From: Closterium sp. NIES-65
Taxonomy: Eukaryota > Streptophyta > Zygnematophyceae > Desmidiales > Closteriaceae
Length of the DNA stretch: 64,000 nt
Assembly: GCA_948144175.1 (NCBI GenBank)
Contig: CANXME010001258.1
Span: 2,217,001 to 2,281,000 of the forward strand
Direction of reading: 5' to 3'
Shown here: one piece after another, positions 13,506 through 56,701 of the stretch
Layout of the letters: every line of letters begins with the position of its first letter
How positions within the stretch are numbered: position 1 is the first letter of the stretch
Program-made: the position numbers and the translations under genes
Notes under the pieces: generated by a model
Told to the model about the DNA's origin: nothing
The model's input: only the letters and a program-made list of their open reading frames with translations
The model's database searches: none

Positions 13506-14741
13506 TGTTGAAATGAGCGAGAGTTAGGTAAGTTTTAACTAGGGCCTAGGCTTAGGAGCCTAGGCCCAACTTAGGATGTCGAGCGGGTTTCACCTAGGGG
13601 AGGAGATCGAGAAAGTTGGAAAGATGAAAAGTAATGTTCACTATAGGTTCAAGGAACATATAGTATAGAAAACAAAAGGGTGCACCACCTAACAAATTTT
13701 GCAATAACTACACTAACTATAGCTACAGGCAGTTACAAATATAAATAATATAAAGTCTGACACTCCCCCATAACTGCCTACAGCAGAAGTTTGTGCAGAA
13801 CACAACTTGCAGGGGTACACAAGCAACACATTTAAGATAATAACCAAGCAACAGCAGGTACTGCACGCGGGCAGACACTAACTGGTCACCCCCTTCATCA
13901 CCTCACCCTCCTCCCTCCCCTCCCCCACACTGCTACAAGAGCAGCAGAGAAAGGGGGGAGAGAGGAGAGGTGGAGGGACGGCTGCTGGTTGCCTCACACC
14001 CGCCACCCCGGTGCCAATCCCCCTTCTCCCCCACACCCTCACACCCTTCCCCCCAGCGGCAGCTGCAGCAGTGGGAACAAAAGGAGGAGGAGGGGAAGGG
14101 AAGGAAACGACCCAAAGCTCCAACACCCGCCACCCCCATACCCTCCCCCCCACGGCTGCAGGGAAACAATGGAGGAGGGGGTGGGCGGGTAGTAAGCCAT
14201 AGAGCGGCTACCATGTGTCGAGGCAGGGAGGTAAGGGGCGGCTGTAGTTTGAGCAGGTGCGGAAAGGCCCGTCGCTTGCCACGGGGCGCACGACGGGTAA
14301 GAGCACCGTCGCAGGCGCCAAAGGCGGGTCCGCGACGGCTTAGTGCACCGCCGCAGGCGCCAAAGGCGGGTCCGCGACGGTTTGAACCACCACCACGGGC
14401 GCCAAAGGCGGGTCCGCGACGGCTAAGAGCGCCGTCGCAGGCGCAAGAGGCGGGTCCGCGACGGCTAAGAGCGCCGTCGCAGGCGCCAAAGGCGGGTCCG
14501 CGACGGGTAGAAAGGAAAAACGTCACGCGCCCGAGGCGCGTGACCAGAAATCCAGCAGCGGAAACGTTGGGCGGGCCCACAGGCCAGGACGAAACTGCTC
14601 TGATAACCATGTGAAGAACTGAACGAGAATGAATCAACTATGAATAAAGTGAGTACAAATATGAAACCCTAATTGGGTTGTACCCCCTATGGGATACCCC
14701 ACTATAGCCTACACAAATAAGTAAGCTATAATGTTCTGACA
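13506..14741 (-). mobile_element. Non-autonomous LTR element N1 with two unlike LTRs
   Basis: A 1236-bp insertion in element B flanked by the perfect duplication CCCTG (13501-13505 and 14742-14746). On the minus strand the left LTR (14610-14741, 132 bp, TGTCAGAACATTATAGC...CACA) is followed by a primer-binding site with one extra T (TGGTTATCAGAGC, 14597-14609), the block CTGGCCTGTGGGCCC, a GC-rich repeat leader built on CCGTCGCGGACCCGCC, a CTCCTCCTCC / CTGCTGCAGCTGCCGCTG segment, and the purine tract ATGGGGGAG (13763-13771). The right LTR (13506-13762, 257 bp) starts TGTCAGACTTTATATT and resembles the N4 LTR, not the left one. No gag or pol is present. Confidence 0.87.
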
Positions 14742-24130: not shown

Positions 24131-24987
24131 ACATGACTCATCATTCTCCCCTCAGTCGTGCTGTGTCCCCAGAGCGTCGTCGGTCCCGTTACCGTGCAAA
24201 CGGTCCGTTCCACCTTGTTCTTCGCTCTCGTGTTCCACCTCCACCTGTCCTTCCACAGCCCCCTGAGTCGTCCCTCACTGTGCTTCACGACCCATTGTCC
24301 GACTACCTCCGTGCCTCCCGTCCTGTCGTCTCCCGTGTTTTGTCCGCGTTGGTGACTCACCCGATTGCACCCCTGTCGTCTGTCTCAGCTCTTGTTACCA
24401 CTGTCGCTGGCTTTGCCTCTTCCCACCGCCTTGACTACGTCACTCACGTGGTGAGTGGCCCTGCTTGTTCTCCATTCTCTGGGGGTGATCCTCTCTTTCC
24501 CTTGGAGGTCCTCGAGGACTGGCAGTTCGAGCTTGGTTTCCTTGCGGCCGCTGTTCCTCATCTCTGCGCCATGCTACTTGCCCCTGAGGGAGATCCAGAC
24601 GCCCTTGACATCCCGATACCTCGCACTCACGCCGAGGCGGTCTCGGGACCCTGGGCTTCGTACTGGATAGCAGCTGAGGAGGCAGAGATGGCATCTTATA
24701 GGTCCACAGGCACTTACGTCGACGCAGTCCCACCACTTGGGACGAACGTCGTCAGTGGCCGATGGCTCTACAAGGTGAATGTCAAGAATAATATATATTT
24801 CTATATATTGTTTTTGTAACTGCCTGTAGTGTAGACTAGTGTAGTTCTATAATGTTCTGTTTTGGTGGTGCACCTTTCATCTTGCCTATATGTACTGCTC
24901 GCTCTATAGTGAAAACCCTTCTTCTTCTCTTTTCAATTCTCTCGACTCTACTCAACTTACTCGAACTCAACTAGCTATGGCTCCTTT

Positions 24988-25334
24988 TGTCAGAGGTCCA
25001 CTGGTGATCCCCGATCGATCCTAGGGAAGGGTTACAGGCACATTTGCCTGGGGGGTTATGGGCGCACTGACCCGCTACTGAAACAAGCCCTTTTATCCCA
25101 ATGGTCTAGTGGTTGGGATTCTGAGATGGTATCAGAGCGAAGGTCTCGGGTTCGAATCCCGGTGTATGCACTTCGGGCATCCCAGTGCGGGGGGGTGTCA
25201 GAGGTCCACTGGTGATCCCCGATCGATCCTAGGGAAGGGTTACAGGCACATTTGCCTGGGGGGTTATGGGCGCACTGACCCGCTACTGAAACAAGCCCTT
25301 TTATCCCAATGGTCTAGTGGTTGGGATTCTGAGA
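24988..25334 (+). mobile_element. Element S: 347-bp miniature LTR retrotransposon (TRIM-like)
   Basis: Two LTRs of 139 bp (24988-25126 and 25196-25334) are identical by eye and enclose only 69 bp. The element is flanked by CCTTT (24983-24987 and 25335-25339) and sits in the 5' LTR of N4; the intact N4 3' LTR shows the empty site. A perfect primer-binding site TGGTATCAGAGC (25127-25138) abuts LTR 1, and a purine-rich GTGCGGGGGGG (about 25185-25195) precedes LTR 2. LTR ends are TG...GA instead of TG...CA. A pol III A-box-like word and a B box flank the primer-binding site. It has no coding capacity. Total size is at the very low end for TRIM elements. Identical LTRs and a perfect duplication point to very recent insertion. 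Confidence 0.95.
25102..25159 (+). promoter_or_regulatory. tRNA-like segment of S: A box, primer-binding site, B box
   Basis: TGGTCTAGTGG (25102-25112), inside the end of LTR 1, matches the D-arm/A-box of eukaryotic tRNA-Glu genes, and the next bases GTTGGGATTC keep the resemblance. GGTTCGAATCC (25149-25159) matches the pol III B box and sits in a T-arm-like hairpin (CGGG / CCCG). Between them TCTGA and TCAGA can form a 5-bp stem with a 7-base loop that holds most of the primer-binding site. No acceptor stem pairing was found, so this is not a functional tRNA gene. LTR 2 has the A box only. Confidence 0.75.
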
Positions 25335-28250
25335 CCTTTAGCCTAGCTAAGCTTTTGACATGGTACAGAGCACGTAACGCTCCTGGACTCCTGCTTCCGC
25401 TGCTACTAAGTGTTCTGCACGCCCCGTGGTGTGCCCTACTCTCGCGGCCCCGCCGCCCTTCTTAAGCGGCCCCGCCGCCCTACTGTCGCGGCCTCGCCGC
25501 CGCTCTACTGTCGCGGCCCCGCCGCCCTACGTCGCGGTCTCGCCGCCCTTCACTGCGGCCTCGCCGCCCGTGCGCCGACGTCTGCGAAGCCGCCGCCCGT
25601 GAGCCGCCGCCCGTGAGCCGCCAGTGGCCCGCCCGTGCGCCGACCGCCTGTGCGCCGCCCGTCCGTGAGCCGACGCCACCCGCGCGCAGCCCGACCGTGA
25701 GCCGGCGCCGCCCGTGAGCCGCCCGCCCGTGCGCCACCAGCCTGCCCGTGAGCCGCTGGCGCCGCCCGTGCGCCACCCGTCCGTGAGCCGCCCGCCCGTG
25801 CGCCGCCCGCCCGTGAGCCGCCCGCCCGTGAGCCGGCGCCACCCGTGGGCCGCCCGCCCGTGCGCCGCCCGCCCGTGAGCCGCCGCCTCTGAGCCGCCCG
25901 TCCGCGAGCCACCCGCCCGCCCGTGAGCCGCCCGTCTCCTACACCTGCGGTCCCGACCCCGTCCCGGCCATGCCTCGTCACCAGCTACGGCACACCGGGG
26001 GCACGTGCACCCCCCCCCCCCTTCTTCCCGTCACCTGTCGCGGCTCCTTCGGGGGCCGCACGCGGCCCCCTCAGGTCGCCTTGACAGGTGACGGGAGGGG
26101 TGACCTGAAAGGGGGGGGCAGTCGTCGCCCCCTCTGCCGCTTGCTTTGGCGCCCGGGGAGGCCGTGCGTCGCCCCCCCCCCCCCCCCCTCTTCTCCTCCT
26201 CCTTTTGTTCCCTCTGCTGCAGCTGCCGCTGGGGGGGAGGGTGTGGGAGTGTGGGGGAGCCCGGGGAGGGACTGGGGGTGGCGGGTGTGGGGGTGATGGG
26301 TGATGTGTGGTCCCCTGGCCCTACGGCCCCATTCTCCTCCGTTTACCCCCCCCCCCCCCCCCCCCCTCTGCTGCTCCTGCAGCAGTGTGAGGGGGATGGG
26401 GAGGGGGAGGGGGAGGTTGAGGAGATGTAGGGGGTGACCAACCAGAGCCTACCACCTCCTCTCCTCTCTCTCTCCTCTCTCCCTTCTGTTCTCTGTTTTC
26501 TGCACTGGTTGTCACTGCTCCTGCCTACTGCTGCTACTTCAACTGCACTCTGCTTGGTGTACCCCATTATGGGGGCGTTGACTGCATATTCTTCCCTACA
26601 AGCACTTATGGGGGCGTGTCAAGAATAATATATATTTCTATATATTGTTTTTGTAACTGCCTGTAGTGTAGACTAGTGTAGTTCTATAATGTTCTGTTTT
26701 GGTGGTGCACCTTTCATCTTGCCTATATGTACTGCTCGCTCTATATTGAAAACCCTTCTTCTTCTCTTTTCAATTCTCTCGACTCTACTCAACTTACTCG
26801 AACTCAACTAGCTATGGCTCCTTTAGCCTAGCTAAGCTTTTGACAGTGAAGCGGCCGCCTGGATCACCACCTGTGTTCAAGGCGCGCTATGTGGCGAGAG
26901 GCTTTAGTCAGCGAGAGGGGGTGGAATTCTTCCAGACCTTCGCTCCCACCCCGAAGATGAGTACTCTTCGGGTGTTGCTGCATATTGCAGCACAGCGCGA
27001 CTACGAGTTGCACTCCTTTGACTTTTCCACCGCGTTCCTTCAGGGGAGCCTGCACGAGCAGATCTGGCTGCGTCGCCCGCCTGGCTTCACTGGCTCTTTC
27101 CCACCTGGGACCCAGTGGCAGCTGCGTCGACCAGTCTACGGCCTGCGCCAGGCTCCACGTGAGTGGCACGACACACTTCGCTCAACCCTTGCAGCGCTTG
27201 ACTTCTTTCCGTCGTCTTCTGACCCGTCACTGTTCGTTCGCCGTGGCTCGACCCCGTTCTTTGTCCTGGTCTACGTCAACGACCAGGTGTTCGCCACTCC
27301 CGACCGACGCGCGCTGGCCTCCGTGAAGGAGGAACTGCAGAGGAGACACACTTGCACTGACATTGGTGAGCTGCAGCACTACCTTGGCCTACAGATCACC
27401 AGGGACAGGGCAGCTCGCACCATTACGCTGACTCAGTCGCATATGGTCGAGCAGATCCTCACGCGGTTTCGCTTCCCGTTCTCCAAGGTACAGCTCACCT
27501 CTCTTGGTGTGGATCATGGGCTCACGGCTCCACCTTCGAACGAGCCATTTGAGTCCAGCGGTCCATATCCTGAGCCGGTGGGTTGTCTCATGTACCTGAT
27601 GACCTGCACTCGCCCAGACCTAGCTTACCCTCTTAGCGTCCTTGCGCGTTTTGTTGCGCCTGGGAGACACCGACCTTCCCACTGGTACGCGGCTAAGAGG
27701 GTGGCGAAGTATGTGGCGAGTACATCAGGCATGGGACTTGTCCTTGGAGGGAAGCAGCCAATTACACTCACAGATTACTCAGACTCGTCGTGGGCCGACG
27801 ATGCGGAGACGCGCCGGTCTACACAGGGGTACTCCTTTAGCCTCGGAGCAGGTGTTGTTTCGTGGCGGTCGACTCGGGCGTCGTCTGTCGCCGGTTCCAG
27901 CTGTGAGGCAGAGGTGTACGCTGCGGCCATGGCCACTCAGGAGCTTCGTTGGCTGTCTTTTCTTCTCACCGACCTTGGTGAGCGGCCTCGCTCTCCCCCA
28001 GTCTTGTTCGCGACAACAAGTCTGCTGTCCTGTTGTGTGAGGAGCCTCGACTGGTTGGGAAGGCGAAGCACATCCAGCTTCGTTACTTCCTTCTGCGTGA
28101 GTTGCAGCAGCGTGGCCAGGCACGCGTGGTACGTGTGGTCTCTGAGGCCAACACTGCAGATATCTTCACCAAGGCGTTGCCGCCTTGTGACCACCAGCGT
28201 TTCTGCACCCAGCTTGGCCTTGTGTCTACAGGCCCTCACTTGCTTGTGTA

Positions 28251-28686
28251 GAGATGCTTTGCTTTGTACTCTGGCATCTTTTTATATTTGCTATATATGT
28301 ATATGCATCTAGAATGGCCTTGTGGCCCTGTGCTTCTGTAGAGATGCTTGTCGTGTACTCTTGCATCTTCTGTATTTGCTATATCCTTGCACGTGGACTG
28401 GCCTTGTGGCCCCTCGCTTGTTCTCGGACTGTGTGGCGATCTTGAGATCCACCCCGAGATTTGTTGTGTTTTTTTTTTGCGAACTGGTCCTGTGACCCTT
28501 GCTGTGTGTTGCTTTCCGCAGGACTACCGTCACCTAGACTATGGGGGTGTGTCAAGCTATATTTGTTATAGATTATTTGTATTAGTCTAGGTGTACTTCA
28601 TGTTTTACTAGGGTTAGGGTTATGCTTGCTATATCTTGCTTGTTTTCACTTTCCTTAGTCAACACTTTTACTTTTGTAACTTGACA
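28251..28686 (+). repeat. Element D 3' UTR, purine tract and 3' LTR
   Basis: The 3' UTR contains two diverged copies of an about 80-bp segment (GAGATGCTT...TATATTTGCTATAT... GGCCTTGTGGCC), then GGTCCTGTGACCC, the purine tract CTATGGGGGTG (28539-28549) and the LTR 28550-28686 (TGTCAAGCTATATTTG...TTGACA). The same UTR words (ACTGGCCTTGTGGCC, TGGTCTTGTGACCCC) occur in elements F and I. The LTR end meets element E directly. Confidence 0.75.
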
Positions 28687-49978: not shown

Positions 49979-50107
49979 TGTCAGAGCATTATAGCTTATG
50001 CTTTTGTGTAGGCTATAGTGGGGTAGCCTATATGGGGTACAACCCAATTAGGGTTAGTACTTGTACCCAACTCTTTCATAGTGCATTCACTCTCGTTCAT
50101 TCTCACA
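49979..50107 (+). repeat. Element I 5' LTR
   Basis: TGTCAGAGCATTATAGC ... TTCTCACA, 129 bp. It contains GTGGGGTAGCC, TATGGGGTACAACCC and AATTAGGGTTAG blocks shared with the other short LTRs, and resembles the left LTR of N1. Confidence 0.95.
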
Positions 50108-50119
50108 TGGTATCAGAGC

Positions 50120-51190
50120 ACATATGCTCCTGGCCTGTGGGCCCTACTACTGCTTCCGCTGCTACTCGATCTGTCGCACGCCCCGTGGCGTGCGACCTAT
50201 TGCGCGGCGATTTTCTCTCTGGCACGCGCCCCGAGGCGCGCGGCCTCGTTCCTTCTAGGCGCGCCACTCCCCGCTACCCCGTCGCGGCGGCCAGGGGAGC
50301 CACGCACGACCCCTCGCTGCCCCGTCGCGGCCCCATCTCGTCGCGCCGCCCTAGCGGCCGCGTCGTGCCGCCCTCGCGGCCCCGATCCGCCGCCCTAGCG
50401 GCCCCGTCACCTACCCCTGCGGCCCCTGCGCCGCCCATCCCGGCCCCGGCTCCGCCCTTCTTGGCCCCGGCGCCACCTCGGCTGGCCCCGTCGCCTACCC
50501 CGGCGACCCCGACGCCGCCCTTCCCGACCCGGCCCCGTCGCCTACCCCTGCGGCCCCGGCGCTGCCCTTCCCGGCCCCAGCGCCACCTCTGCTGGCCCCG
50601 ACGCCGCCCTTATCGGCCCCGGCGCCGCCTCTACTGGCCCCGTCGCCTACCTCTGCGGCCCCGGCGCCGCCCTTCCCGGCCCCGGCGCCGCCTCTGCTGG
50701 CCCCGTCACCTACCCTGCGGCCCCGGCGCCACCTCTTCTGGCCCCGTCGCCGCTCCACCCGGCCCCGCCGCCGTCCCCAAGTGGCCTCGCCGTCACCACC
50801 GAGCCGCCGGCGCCGCCGAGCTGCTACCGAGCCGCCCGAGCCACCCGAGCCGCCCGAGCCGCAGCGCCACCTGAGCCGCCCGAGCCGCCGGGTCGCCGAG
50901 CCACCGAGCTGCAGTTGCTGCAGAGCCACCATACCACCGAGCCGCCCGAGTCGCCCGAGCCGCCCGAGCCGCCGAGTCGCCGAGCCGCCCGAGTTGCCCG
51001 AGCCGCCGAGCTGCAGTTGCTGCCGAGCCGGCGTGCCGCCGAGCCGCCCGAGCCGCCGAGTCGCCGAGAAGCCGAGCCTGCTCTTCCCACCACTGGTGAG
51101 CCCCTGCCCTGCTAGCGCGCTGCCTGCCGCCTGCTTGCCTGCCTGCCTGCCTTTCGGCCCGCCTGGCTGCTCGCCTTACTACTGCTACTC
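50120..51190 (+). repeat. Element I leader with GC-rich minisatellites
   Basis: Begins with GCTCCTGGCCTGTGGGCCC, shared with N1 and N2, and a CGCGCCCCGAGGCGCGCGGC palindromic block. Then an array of CGGCCCCGGCGCCGCC-type units (about 50330-50760) and an array of GAGCCGCCCGAGCCGCC units (about 50800-51075). Pro/Arg readings here are compositional. The leader ends at about 51190, before the gag remnant. Confidence 0.85.
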
Positions 51191-51215
51191 TTGCTCCTGC
51201 TTCTACTGGTGGAGC

Positions 51216-53297
51216 CAGATGCAGCCCCAGCGACGCCCGCGTGAGTCCCTCACGCCCCAGCAGCTGCGTGAGAGGTACGCTGGTTGTGGTTGTAGGGGTG
51301 GCGGCGCTGCTACTCCTACCACTACTGCTGCTACTACTACTGGCGGCGGCCAGCTGCAGCTCCAGCGACGCCCACGCGCGTCTCTCACGCCCCAGCAGCT
51401 TCGTGAGTGGTACGCTCAGAGTAGAGGGTCTCTCAGTTCTGTTCGCTGCTCTTACGTGATTCGCACTGGTGCTCGGACTGGTCAGCCTTGTGGGACACCT
51501 AGTCACACACACTCCCGCTGCTTCGCCCATCTGAGCGACGCCTGGCGTACCGAGTTTGGCGACGAGGCTGAGCTCCCCGACTGGGTGGAGTTGCTAAGGC
51601 AGAGGGTAGATGTATTTGCTCTTGACTATGATGCTATTCTCACTGCCATGTATGCATTGCCTACTAGTGCTGACCGTGCTAGTCACCTGTGTGTACCGCC
51701 TGACCCGGGTATAGAGCCTGCTGCTCTAGCTGCTGGTGAGGCTGCTGCTCTGGGTGCTAGTGAGTCTCCTGCTCCAGGTACAGGTGCGGCTGCTGCTCTA
51801 GGTGCTAGTGAGTCTGCTTCCTCAGGTGCGGGTGAGTCTGCTCTCTCAGGTACCGCGTCGGCTCCGGCCTCTCACACCTTCACTCTTGACTCGGGGGCTT
51901 CCCGCTCCTTCTTTTGAGACCGCACCACACTCACGCCGCTTGGTCGGCCAGTTGCAGTCTCTCTTGCAGACCCCTCTGGGGGTCCTGTCCTTGCTCACTT
52001 CTCCACTGTCCTCCCGTGTCCAGCGGCCCCCTCTGGCACCCTGTCTGGTCTTTACCTCCCCTCGTTCTCTACGAACTTGGTGAGTGGTGCTGACCTACAA
52101 GATGCGGGGGTTCACCAGTTCACTCCTGCGAGTCAGCGGATGACCCAATGCACGGACGCTCGGACAGGCCGACACCTGGCCACGTTTACACGTCGGCTGG
52201 GGTCGAGCCTGTACACGCTGACCACTTCGTCTCCTCCAATCACTGCGTCTGGTCAGGTAGCTGCGTCGGGTCAGGTGTTTGCTGCAGCGTCCAAGTCCGG
52301 TCCTGAGTCTGCCCCCTGCTCGTGTCGTCTCCTGTCTCACGAGACTCTCCTCTGGCACCACCGCTTTGGTCACCCCTCCCTACTTCGTCTCCGAAGCATG
52401 GCCTCCCGTGTCCTTGTCTCTGGTCTTCCCCGGTCCCTCCCTCCCCTTCCTCCGGGGCCTGGCCCTACCTGCGTCCCCTGTGTCGAGGGGCGGCAGCGGG
52501 CTGCCCCTCACTCCTCTCAGTTTCCTCCGACACAGGCCCCGCTGCAGACGCTTCACATGGACGTGTGGGTTCCAGCTCGCGTCCGTGGACAGGGTCACGA
52601 GCGCTACTTCCTGCTGGTGGTTGACGACTACTCGCGTTACACCACAGTCTTCCCCTTGCGCAGCAAGGGTGATGTCACTGGGGTGTTGATCGACTGGATC
52701 CGCGCAGCTTGTCTCCAGCTCAGGCGGAGCTTCGGCTCGGACTTTCCTGTTCTGCGTCTGCACTCTGACAGAGGTGGAGAGTTTTCTTCTGGCCTTCTGC
52801 AAGCCTACTGTCGTTCAGGAGGCATCCGCCAGACCTTCACGCTTCCGGACTCTCCACAGCAAAATGGGATTGCTGAGCGCCGCATTGGCATGGTCATGGA
52901 CGTCGCCCGTACGTCCATGATGCATGCGGCTGCCCCCCATTTTCTGTGGCCGTTTGCGGTCCGGTACGCGGCGCATCAGATCAACCTTCAGCCCAGGGTC
53001 TCCATGCCGGAGACCTCCCCAGCTTTGCTGTGGACAAGGAAGGTTGGCGATGCGTCTGCGTTCCTTGTCTGGGGATCTCGGGCGTTTGTCCGCGACTTGT
53101 CTGCGGACAAGCTGTCCCCTCGTGCTGCTCCCTGCGTCTTCCTGGGTTTCCCCCCTGACGCGCTAGGGTGGTAGTTCTACCACCCCACCTCTCGCCGTGT
53201 TCTGTCCTCCCAGGACGTCACGTTCGACGATTCGGTCCCCTACTACCGTCTCTTCCCCTACCGCACTCCGTCCCTCCCCCCGCCACCACTCTTCCTT
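51216..53297 (+). pseudogene. Element I shortened Gag, protease and integrase
   Basis: One frame. The first ATG in the gag remnant is about 51220 (MQPQRRPRESLTPQQLRERY); the capsid-like domain is missing. A second LTPQQLREWYAQ repeat, a C-X13-C-X4-H-X4-C motif, VFALDYDAILTAMYALPT and an Ala/Ser-rich repeat spacer follow, then protease LDSGASRSFF, TGA (51915-51917, relatives have Arg), the pre-integrase LLSHETLLWHHRFGHPSL, integrase blocks HMDVWVPARVRG, LHSDRGGEFSSGLL and PQQNGIAERRIG, FVRDLSADKLSP, and TAG (53172-53174) in GW-stop-FYHPTSRR where relatives have Gln. Confidence 0.9.
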
Positions 53298-56200
53298 GTG
53301 CCAGGTCCCCCCCCGGTAGACCCCCTCCCCCCTCAGGGTCCTGCCCCTTCAGGTGTGTCCCAGGTAGACGCTGTTGAGCCTGTCAAGGTCGCTGGTGACT
53401 CTGGTGCTGCTGAGGGTGCTGAGCCTGGGGGTGCTGACTCTGGGGGTGCTGAGCGTGTGGGTGCTACGCCTGGGGGTGCTGAGCCTGGGGGTGCTGAGCC
53501 TGGGGGTGCTGACCCTGGGGGTGCTGAGCCTGGGGTTGCTGAGCCTGGGGGTGCTGAGCCTGGGGGTGCTCAGCCTGGGAGTGCTGAGCCTCGGGGTGCT
53601 GAGCCTGGGGGTGCTACGCCTGGGGGTGCTATGCGTGGAGGTGCTGAGCCTGGAGGTGCTGAGCCTGAGGGAGCTGGGCCTGCTCGTGTGGCGTCTGGCG
53701 GTGCTGTGCCTGGCGGTTCTCCGGGTGCTTCGTCTCGCCGGGAGCCACTCTCTCCACAGGAGCTGCGTGAGTGGTTTGCCCGGCGCTGGAGGCGAGCTGC
53801 TGGAGCTGGAGGTGCTGCGGGTACTGAAGGTTCTGCTGCTGCTGAGGGTGCTGGTGCCGCGGGTCCCGGAGGTGCTCGTACTGGGAGTACTGGAGCTGCA
53901 GGGCCTGCGGGTACTTCTGGAGTTGGAGCTGCTGCGGGTGTTGGCGCGGAGGCTACTGTTGTCGGTCCTGGAGGCGGTCCTGCTGGGGGTGCTACTGGTG
54001 CTGCTGGAGGTACTGGAGTTGGAGGTGCTGCTGGTGCTGGTGCTGCCGCTGGGGGTACTGGTGCTGTCCCTGCTGTGTCTGGAGTCGCCGCGCGGCCTCG
54101 GCCGTACTTCGTTCCGCTCCTTCAGCAGGTTCTTGGTCTCCCGCCTTCTACTAGTCCTCCTCCTCCCTTAGAGTGTCCACAACCTGTCCCGTCACAGTTA
54201 CAGTTACAGCCGGCCTCCCCACTGCCTGCTCCGTCTCCCTACACTGGTCCTACTGGAGGTCTTGCTGAGCGTCGTGAGCCTGCGTCTCGCCCTGCGTCGC
54301 CTGTCCGTGCTGCTCGCACTAGTGGTCGCGGTTCGCGTCAGCGTCCTCCTCCTATCCCTGGCACGCACCGGATGTCTCTGCGTCCATCCACTGCTCCTCT
54401 GCGTGCCCCTTTACCTTCTCCACTTGAGTCTTCTCTTCCTGCTCTTGCCGACCCGGAGTCGGACTCTCTTCGTGCTGCCAGTCCTACTGTCACGCGTCTC
54501 CTTGCTACTGTTGTCACTGTCCCTTCCTTTGAGTCCACTGCTGCGTCTGCCCTAGTTGCTGAGCTCGTCGACTTTGCTGCTCGCTGTCGCCTAGACTACA
54601 CCGCCAGTCTTGTTGCTGAGTTTGAGTCTGTCTGTCCTCCGTCCGTCGGGGGTGAGTGTGCCCTTGGCACGGACGTCCTTGAGGACAGGCAAGAGGAGTT
54701 CCAGTGTCTGGCTACTGCTTCACCTCATCTCGTGTCCGTACTGCTTACCCCTGAGGGAGACCCGGATGCACTTGACATCCCGACTCCGCGCTCTTACGCG
54801 GAGGCGATAGAGGGTCCCTACTCCTCTCAGTGGCAGGCAGCTATGGACGCAGAGATGGCTTCCTCGAAGTCCACAGGCACCTACGTTGACGAGGTTCCCC
54901 CGCCTGGGGCGAACATCGTCAGTGGCATGTGGATTTTCAGGGTGAAGCGGCCGCCGGGTTCTCCGCCTGTCTTCAAGGCGCGTTACGTGGCTCGTGGCTT
55001 CAGTCAGCGGCAGGGAGTTGACTACTTTCAGACCTTCTCTCCCACCCCGAAGATGACCACTCTTTGGGTACTGCTGCACATAGCTGCTCACCGTGACTAC
55101 GAGCTTCACTCTCTTGACTTCAGCACAGCTTTCTTGCAGGGCAGCCTGCACGAGGAGATCTGGCTGCTCCGCCCACCTGGCTTCACTGGGTCTTTTCCTC
55201 CTAGCACCCAGTGGAGCCTCCGGCGGCCAGTCTACGGTCTCCGCCAGGCACCGCGTGAGTGGCACGACACACTGAGGACTACACTTGCGGCTCTTGGGTT
55301 TGCTCCCTCTACTGCCGACCCGTCGCTGTTTCTGCGCACCGACACTTCTTTGCCGCCGTTCTACATCCTCGTGTACGTTGACGACCTGGTCTTTGCCACA
55401 GCTGACACTTCTGGACTCACCCACGTGAAGTCCGAGCTGCAGAAGAGACACACGTGCACAGACCTGGGTGAATTGCGCAGCTACCTTGGCTTGCAGATCA
55501 CCCGGGACAGAGCACGCCGCACCATTACCCTTGACTCAGTCACACATGGTGCAGCAGGTCCTTCAGCGCCTCGGCTTCACGTACTCCTCGCCTCAGGCCA
55601 CTCCTCTGCCTACTCGCCACTCGCTCTCAGCTCTGCCTTCGGATGAGTCCGTAGAGTCGAGTGGCCCGTACCCAGAGCTTGTTGGCTGCGTCATGTACCT
55701 GATGACCTGCACTCGACCTGACCTTGCATACCCTCTTAGCATTCTCGCACGCTATGTTGCTCCTGGGAGACACAGACCAGAGCACATGGCTGCAGCGAAG
55801 AGGGTGTTGCGCTTCTTGTGGAGTACGTCAGGCATGGGGCTTGTGCTTGGAGGGCAGAGTCCAGTGGTCCATACTGGGCACGTAGACGCTTCTTGGGCTG
55901 ACGACCAGGCTACGCAGCGGTCGTCACAGGGTTACACCTTCAGCCTTGGTTCCAGCTCTGTTTCGTGGCGGGCTACCCGCTCGTCTTCTGTTCTCGGCTC
56001 CAGTTGTGAGGCTGAGATCTACGCCGGGGCCATGGCTGCACAGGAGCTTCGCTGGCTCACCTACCTGCTGTCTGACCTCGGAGAGCCGCCTCGTTCTCCT
56101 CGAGTGCGGTACGTAGACAACAAGGCCATGCTGGCCTTGTGTCGAGAGCAGAGATTGGAGCACAGAACAAAGCACATTGCTCTCCGCTACTTCCTTGCTC

Positions 56201-56358
56201 GTGAGCTGCAACAGCGTGGTCAGCTGCGTCTTGCGTACGTGGCCTCTGAGGCCAACACTGCTGATATCTTCACCAAGGCGCTTGCGCCTTGTGATCATCA
56301 ACGCTTCTGTACTCAGCTGGGTCTTGTGCCTGCCTTGCCTCACTTGCTCACCTCCTGA
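53298..56358 (+). pseudogene. Element I linker, reverse transcriptase and RNase H
   Basis: PGPPPVDPLPPQGPAPSGVS leads into GAEPG pentapeptide repeats (53400-53700), LSPQELREWFARRW, Gly/Ala repeats, then SSQWQAAMDAEMAS, VPPPGANIVSGMWIFRVKR, LDFSTAFLQGSLHEEIW, VYGLRQAPREWHDTL, an intact YVDDLVFATAD and LGLQITRDRARRTITL. An extra T near 55531 shifts the frame; it resumes as TQSHMVQQVLQRLGF and continues through RNase H (VDASWADDQATQRSSQG, GSSCEAEIYAGAMAAQEL, YVDNKAMLALC, EANTADIFTKALAPCDHQRF) to TGA at 56356-56358. Apart from one frameshift it is complete. Confidence 0.92.
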
Positions 56359-56572
56359 CCTTGCTTGTACTGTTACATATATATATACACGTGCTCTTGC
56401 TTGTCTAGCCTTTTATATATATATGTACTCCTGCATGTGAACTGGCCTTGTGGCCTTGACCTTGTGCCCGGAATGTGTGGTGACTTTGTGATCCACCCTG
56501 AGCTTGCTTTGCTTTGCTTTGCTTGACTGGTCTTGTGACCCCTTGTACTCCCCCACTTTGCCTATGGGGGTG

Positions 56573-56701
56573 TGTCAGAGCATTATAGCTTATGCTTTTG
56601 TGTAGGCTGTAGTGGGGTAGCCTATATGGGGTACAACCCAATTAGGGTTAGTACTTGTACCCAACTCTTTCATAGTGCATTCATTCTCGTTCATTCTCAC
56701 A
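56573..56701 (+). repeat. Element I 3' LTR
   Basis: 129 bp, two transitions from the 5' copy. It is preceded by the 3' UTR (56359-56572) with GGCCTTGTGGCC, GGTCTTGTGACCCC and the purine tract. Confidence 0.95.

Follow-up and report, generated by a model that had tools for sequence, protein, structure and literature searches.

We propose that S, a 347-bp LTR retrotransposon of the alga Closterium sp. NIES-65, is a copia-mobilised TRIM that is transcribed by RNA polymerase III (pol III) from a tRNA-derived promoter split by the border between the 5' LTR and the interior, with transcripts that end at a TTTT in the 3' LTR. We hold this sequence-based reading with moderate confidence. S itself was inserted recently and belongs to a multi-copy TRIM family. 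Its anatomy, its insertion, the existence of the family, the sequence of the boxes and of the T run, and the copia-like ends can all be observed directly.

Results

Structure and insertion of S

The window analysed here is the whole 64,000-nucleotide stretch of contig CANXME010001258.1. The following features define S and the element that it entered, N4.

24988-25334: S, whole element, 347 bp
24988-25126, plus strand: 5' LTR of S, 139 bp, TGTCAG...CTGAGA
25127-25195, plus strand: interior of S, 69 bp
25196-25334, plus strand: 3' LTR of S, matching the 5' LTR at 139/139 positions
24983-24987, no strand: target-site duplication CCTTT, 5' copy
25335-25339, no strand: target-site duplication CCTTT, 3' copy
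25127-25138, plus strand: primer-binding site (PBS) TGGTATCAGAGC, adjoining the 5' LTR
25189-25195, plus strand: polypurine tract-like run of seven G, directly before the 3' LTR
24780-26845, plus strand: N4, non-autonomous LTR element with LTRs at 24780-25360 (including S) and 26617-26845, ends TGTCAA...TTGACA and duplication GTGAA

S lies within the 5' LTR of N4, and the empty site is the single CCTTT in the 3' LTR of N4 (26617-26845). Positions 24780-24987 match 26617-26824 at 99.5%, positions 25335-25360 match 26820-26845 at 100%, and the two alignments overlap by exactly 5 bp, which are CCTTT. The PBS of S is what we take to be the complement of the 3' end of plant initiator tRNA-Met, and it fits a streptophyte initiator tRNA. 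An earlier note on this DNA, made from the sequence alone, had described S as an LTR retrotransposon, and the identical 139-bp LTRs, the 69-bp interior, CCTTT, the abutting initiator-Met PBS and the empty site bear this out. The identical LTRs, the duplication and the empty site likewise uphold its view that S is a recently inserted TRIM. S has two LTRs, is shorter than 1000 bp, is non-coding and carries a PBS and a polypurine tract at the ends of its interior, where we count the seven-G run as the tract and do not take the family's open 69-codon unit (see below) as coding. It also shows a duplication and belongs to a set of dispersed insertions; CCTTT and the empty site come from this copy alone, and the dispersal comes from the flanks of predicted proteins.

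The age limit given by the identical 139-bp LTRs alone is loose. The N4 LTRs (229 bp) show one difference in 208 compared positions (99.5%); thus, both insertions look recent, S having followed N4. The note had also stressed how short S is. At 347 bp S is indeed extremely short, but it is not the smallest known LTR element: the length of FRetro129/SMART is given as 292 bp (PMC3281118).

The reading frame in which N4 is inserted encodes a copia reverse transcriptase (RVT_2), and both flanks of N4 match copia sequence at 54855-56348. The 1.26-kb interior of N4 contains GC-rich tandem repeats of the CCGCCCGTGAGCC type, and its PBS is one base short (TGGTACAGAGC).

copia elements in the window

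The window holds a copia element of a type that could serve as a helper for S.

49979-56701, plus strand: copia element, candidate helper type, with TGTCAGAG start, PBS and 5-bp duplication GCAGG

S and this element share the TGTCAGAG start, the PBS and the length of the duplication, 5 bp. This supports the use of copia proteins in trans by S, in agreement with the note, which had suggested that S borrows copia machinery. Beyond the ends and the PBS, no stretch is shared between S and the copia elements in the window. When the translated copia frame at 26750-28312 was compared with proteins, 7917 of the 8000 candidates scored were matches; the matches listed, which are the best 120 of the 7917, all come from Closterium (NIES-53, NIES-54, NIES-64, NIES-65, Yama58-4 and Naga37s-1).

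A separate observation concerns the leaders of elements in the window. In five of the nine leaders tested (14597-14608 on the minus strand; 19712, 21310, 30852 and 50108 on the plus strand), the PBS is followed by a long collinear reverse complement of plant initiator tRNA-Met that covers the T-arm, the anticodon stem and the D-arm (z 3.2-6.5), while the other 11 tRNAs compared reach z of at most 1.3 in the same five. The leaders were those of ten PBS-like sites minus 38960 and 49976, plus that of N4. In Ty1, too, complementarity to the primer is described as reaching into the T and D arms (PMC4974528); in the present leaders it looks longer. An extended primer contact could account for it, as could a captured anti-tRNA.

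A tRNA-like unit across the LTR border

The tRNA-like features of S lie on both sides of the border between the 5' LTR and the interior.

25102-25112, plus strand: A box TGGTCTAGTGG, in the LTR end
25149-25159, plus strand: B box GGTTCGAATCC, in the interior, occurring once
25310-25320, plus strand: second copy of the A box, in the 3' LTR, not followed by a B box
25095-25119, plus strand: inverted repeat ATCCCAA / TTGGGAT, enclosing the A box exactly
25120-25136, plus strand: hairpin at the anticodon-arm position, with a 5-bp stem and a 7-nt loop, made of the LTR end and the PBS
25146-25162, plus strand: T-arm-like hairpin with the B box, its stem weaker in the family majority

Both boxes fit the consensus, 36 bases separate them, and the order across the border is A box in the LTR end, then PBS, then B box in the interior. 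The pair in S is the only one in the window, on either strand, in which an A box and a B box lie 20-60 bases apart; in 200 dinucleotide-shuffled windows the mean number of such pairs was 0.0000. No further B box was found in the window when one mismatch was permitted.

We compared positions 25091-25180 in the sense direction with 12 tRNAs, using 300 shuffles. The best score was that of an animal-type tRNA-Glu-TTC (z 10.4), followed by plant Gly (9.0), human Glu-CTC (8.7), human Pro (8.4) and plant Pro (6.7); none of the 300 shuffles reached the scores of animal-type Glu, Gly or Pro. Lower scores were obtained for plant Glu (5.9 and 6.0) and plant Gln (5.7), and those for Arg, Asp, Lys and iMet ranged from 3.8 to 1.0. 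The plant-type tRNA-Glu, with z of about 6, thus falls below the animal type, which counts against the reading that we favour. The note had called the unit tRNA-Glu-like. This label is fair in that animal-type Glu scored best; as Gly and Pro are also high, the source may be Glu, Gly or Pro. The A box, the B box and a tRNA match that extends from D-arm to T-arm do support the note's description of a unit that begins in the LTR end, takes in the PBS and continues into the interior.

Two other origins were considered. A tRNA-Pro source, whose anticodon TGG would equal the first bases of the PBS, lost its lead since animal-type Glu scored best of the 12. The B box was also considered as the reverse complement of the T arm of the primer, and the score of reverse-complemented iMet against S (z 0.6) gave this no support. 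Other reverse-complemented tRNAs gave z of up to 3.5, which we put down to the near-palindromic T arm.

The covariance-model check that the note had called for does name tRNA as the best Rfam match at the locus (25101-25163), but at 15.7 bits, below the gathering threshold of 29. ARAGORN, in its bacterial setting, found 0 tRNA genes, and 25092-25180 is predicted to fold into three hairpins in a row with no cloverleaf, at an energy no better than that of shuffles (z -0.76). For S as a whole, the predicted fold is slightly better than that of shuffles (z -1.76), of which 3 in 100 did as well. A search of viral contigs for the pattern of A box plus PBS gave 0 matches, and a scan for bacterial promoters and terminators gave no lead.

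Other copies of S in Closterium

We sought further copies by comparing translated S with predicted proteins at E up to 1, and 153 proteins matched. The 120 listed of these 153 all come from Closterium sp. NIES-53 or NIES-54; other Closterium strains are present in the database and do not appear among them. Every one of the 120 was matched to S in a tblastn comparison at E up to 1e-3, though a few of the matches are weak. These proteins dispose of the possibility, raised in the note, that S has no other copies. With a short antisense protein query, 5 proteins were found at E up to 1, all from NIES-54.

Among the 120 listed proteins, 47 contain the LTR/PBS/interior junction, 102 the interior/LTR junction and 42 both. 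More than one interior is present in 23 of the 120, which fits tandem arrays of LTR and interior. In the two sets of 89 proteins with a flank of more than 25 residues, the N-terminal flanks form 54 clusters and the C-terminal flanks 67, counts that undetected pieces of S in the flanks may bias. These clusters indicate that the copies are dispersed. S is a dispersed family, apparently often in tandem arrays. Thus, S is not merely a local tandem duplication, an outcome that the note had allowed for: the empty site, CCTTT and the many different flanks all speak to this.

The family majority unit appears to measure 207 bp, or 69 codons, with one sense frame open throughout; in gene models, tandem arrays can therefore yield long periodic reading frames. 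A frequent entry point of Closterium gene models into S is TATCAG/AGC within the PBS (25133-25138): in 51 of 114 sense-first proteins (P0124, P0160, P0174, P0182 and others) the first piece of S begins there or no more than a codon away. For some of these entries the donor is apparently at LTR position 16 (VRGPL/SEGLGF), as if S were spliced in; this is a matter of annotation only.

Conservation of the boxes and the T run

In the sense profile, codons at the B box read G in 103/113, F in 106/113, E in 106/113 and S in 106/115 copies, and those at the A box read N in 72/91, G in 85/91, L in 78/90, V in 80/92 and V in 69/93. A stricter set was drawn from 241 fragments. Of the 169 with at least 25 codons, 113 that were at least 75% like the majority were kept and 56 were dropped. 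In this set, the majority codon was found at 237 of 267 A-box positions (G-L-V; 0.888), 137 of 161 B-box positions (0.851), 3012 of 3263 U3 positions (0.923) and 358 of 415 positions in the interior after the B box (0.863). The corresponding counts were 500/522 for the KPFYP block, which contains the TTTT, and 127/189 for the PBS, a low figure that probably results from the gene-model edges at TATCAG/AGC. All seven box codons were kept in 20 of the 36 clean fragments that span both boxes. The note had raised the possibility that the boxes are not conserved in other copies; instead, the box codons mostly match the family majority. Selective constraint on the boxes above background was sought in the 113 fragments and was not found. 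As the box codons (0.888 and 0.851) do not stand above U3 or the later interior, no special constraint is indicated.

The codon that reports on the TTTT is F in 83 of 87 sense readings, and K in all 8 of the antisense copies shown that cover it; the B-box residues are kept in 5/5 antisense pieces. The readings in other frames were shown only above 55% identity, for 17 proteins selected out of 125. The sense F and the antisense K fit a conserved TTTT, the two readings coming from different copies.

Codons 113 and 125, which report on one pair of the hairpin around the A box, were N-V in 73 of 94 fragments, S-T in 9, N-T in 6, S-V in 3 and others in 3. They covary over the four main classes (Fisher p 1.1e-6). 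If S and T stand for AGT and ACT, this is a change from A-T to G-C, possibly a single inherited event. The fourth A-box codon is Thr in 15 of 94 fragments; if it is ACN, these A boxes are without their last G.

S differs from the family in several places. The note had pointed to its TG...GA ends. S does have them, but of the 57 residues aligned at the LTR-end codon 34 are Thr (ACN) and 13 are Arg (36 and 3 in the stricter set), so that the family mostly ends TG...CA and TG...GA is a minority form, ruled out as a family trait. The usual family end, CTGACA, is the perfect inverted-repeat partner of TGTCAG. Relative to most copies, S apparently carries an extra A at 25081-25083, which changes the frame. 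Codon 173 is Arg in S and Gln in 93 of 115 copies; the T-stem of S is thus better than that of the family.

Discussion

A model for the copying of S

Our model uses the following additional features.

25084-25086, plus strand: CAA, proposed pol III start area
25091-25094, plus strand: TTTT in the 5' LTR, the same run as in the 3' LTR, just after the proposed start
25299-25302, plus strand: TTTT in the 3' LTR, proposed pol III terminator

In plants, the start of pol III transcription follows a CAA rule, and a run of four T is a weak terminator. We infer the use of pol III, its start and stop points, the R region and the helper. The S LTR contains one TTTT, and no TATA, TATAA or AATAAA was found in it. 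We propose that the A box, the PBS as anticodon arm and the B box form an internal tRNA-derived pol III promoter that is split by the LTR border. Pol III would start near 25085-25095, pass through the interior and U3, and stop at 25299-25302. The TTTT at 25091-25094 counts against this scheme. The resulting RNA, about 210-218 nt long, would carry a tRNA-like head, and its R would measure about 10 nt; the predicted fold of this RNA is no better than that of shuffles (z -0.74). Initiator tRNA-Met would prime at the PBS, the short R would permit the first strand transfer, and copia proteins acting in trans would finish the DNA copy and integrate it, with a 5-bp duplication of the target. As S has a single B box, only a 5' LTR joined to an interior could start transcription. 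Thus, 3' LTRs and solo LTRs could not, whereas every unit of a tandem array could.

More tentatively, and with some doubt of our own, we suggest that the promoter is complete only at the LTR-interior join, that a tRNA-headed, SINE-like RNA is copied in the manner of an LTR element, that solo LTRs are promoter-dead, and that a SINE RNA which gained a PBS in its anticodon arm explains the layout. If this is true, a tRNA-type SINE RNA with a PBS in the anticodon arm would be a route from SINE to LTR element. A split promoter also predicts U-ended RNAs of about 210-218 nt and no pol III start from solo LTRs. More generally, the layout interleaves promoter and primer-binding site, and so bears on the capture of small-RNA promoters by LTR elements.

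Other explanations of S

S may instead be an ordinary TRIM transcribed by pol II from starts in U3, in which the tRNA-like piece was captured long ago and is now passive. We regard this as unlikely, though it deserves serious attention: conservation of the box codons does not exceed that of the rest of the element, the tRNA-like region has no structure beyond chance, and its tRNA score is below the gathering threshold. Against it, the LTR lacks TATA and AATAAA, both boxes are intact in S at a tRNA-like spacing, and the box codons and the T run match the majority in most copies. That the boxes arose as a chance match is highly improbable. Matches to the A box by itself are frequent (19 in the window against 19.8 expected), but an A box and a B box in register never occurred in the 200 shuffled windows, the tRNA match extends through D-arm and T-arm with z of up to 10.4, and the boxes are seen in independent copies; on these grounds we reject chance.

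We give even less weight to a tandem satellite or a SINE in place of an LTR-type element. The 23 of 120 proteins with more than one interior, which are consistent with LTR-interior arrays, are what such a reading has in its favour, but tandem arrays are also described for Cassandra and other TRIMs (PMC7215508, PMC4717578). The precise insertion with CCTTT and an empty site, the PBS and G run in place, and the varied flanks speak against it, and we reject it. Last, and least probable of all, S could be a strict member of Helenus, in which case we would have misread the border and the LTR would contain the entire tRNA-like sequence; its size is near that given for Helenus-1_SMo (see below), but the two identical repeats, together with the duplication and the PBS that adjoins the LTR, fix the border, and the only B box in the window, even with one mismatch allowed, is in the interior. 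As the B box lies outside the LTR, strict membership is refuted for this copy.

Comparison with known elements

The reading that we favour, a TRIM with a split pol III promoter, places S among several known systems. SMART/FRetro129 resembles S in being extremely short (292 bp) and non-coding with a 5-bp duplication, and it shares the type of PBS and polypurine tract with a larger candidate helper; unlike S, it has 85-bp LTRs with a TATAAAA motif (PMC3281118). A word search of the main text of that paper returned 'tRNA' 0 times and 'polymerase III' 0 times. S is not a tRNA gene, as tRNA finders see no cloverleaf in it. The proposed S RNA, with its tRNA-like head and SINE-length body, would resemble a tRNA-derived SINE (SINE2), but S differs in its LTRs, PBS, polypurine tract-like run and 5-bp duplication.

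Cassandra, as it is described, is like S in its PBS (TGGTATCAGAGC), its tandem LTR-interior arrays and its pol III promoter and terminator, the last two as we propose for S. Its R is 18 bp, as cited in PMC10886601, and that proposed for S is about 10 nt. Cassandra differs from S in its size (565-860 bp) and in its 5S rRNA-type promoter, which is present in each LTR. No Rfam family matched the window at the gathering threshold, and the three hits listed for 24960-25380 at E up to 10 were tRNA and two plastid UTR families, with no 5S; S is therefore not a Cassandra element.

The closest relatives are the Helenus elements, which belong to TRIMp3 and are described as TRIMs with tRNA-like LTRs (Kojima 2024, PMC10886601). 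The note had thought a TRIM with a tRNA-like promoter an undescribed class, a claim that this 2024 description overturns. At the sequence level, S carries a pol III promoter derived from a small-RNA gene, as TRIMp3 elements do, with an Rfam match below the gathering threshold. S and Helenus are alike in being TRIMs with tRNA-like A and B boxes, and in having a PBS and a polypurine tract between the LTRs. The 5-bp duplication is also common to S and to Helenus of plants and fungi, and in fungi Helenus is described as copia-mobilised (PMC10886601). The sole plant host reported there is Selaginella moellendorffii, whose Helenus-1_SMo has a 120-bp LTR, an 85-bp interior and a 5-bp duplication.

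Helenus, however, is described with its tRNA-like sequence, A and B boxes included, inside the LTRs, whereas S has its B box in the interior and its PBS between the boxes. S thus differs from Helenus in that the LTR border splits its promoter and the PBS takes the anticodon-arm position. It is by description that S is set apart, and Helenus-1_SMo may share the split. No promoter split by an LTR border was recognised in the literature that we searched, which included few subscription papers. TRIMs with a tRNA-like promoter are therefore known, and what looks new in S is the split promoter with the PBS inside it. S looks like an extension of tRNA-promoter TRIMs to a streptophyte alga and, together with the Helenus of Selaginella, it raises the question of whether such elements are old in streptophytes or have arisen repeatedly.
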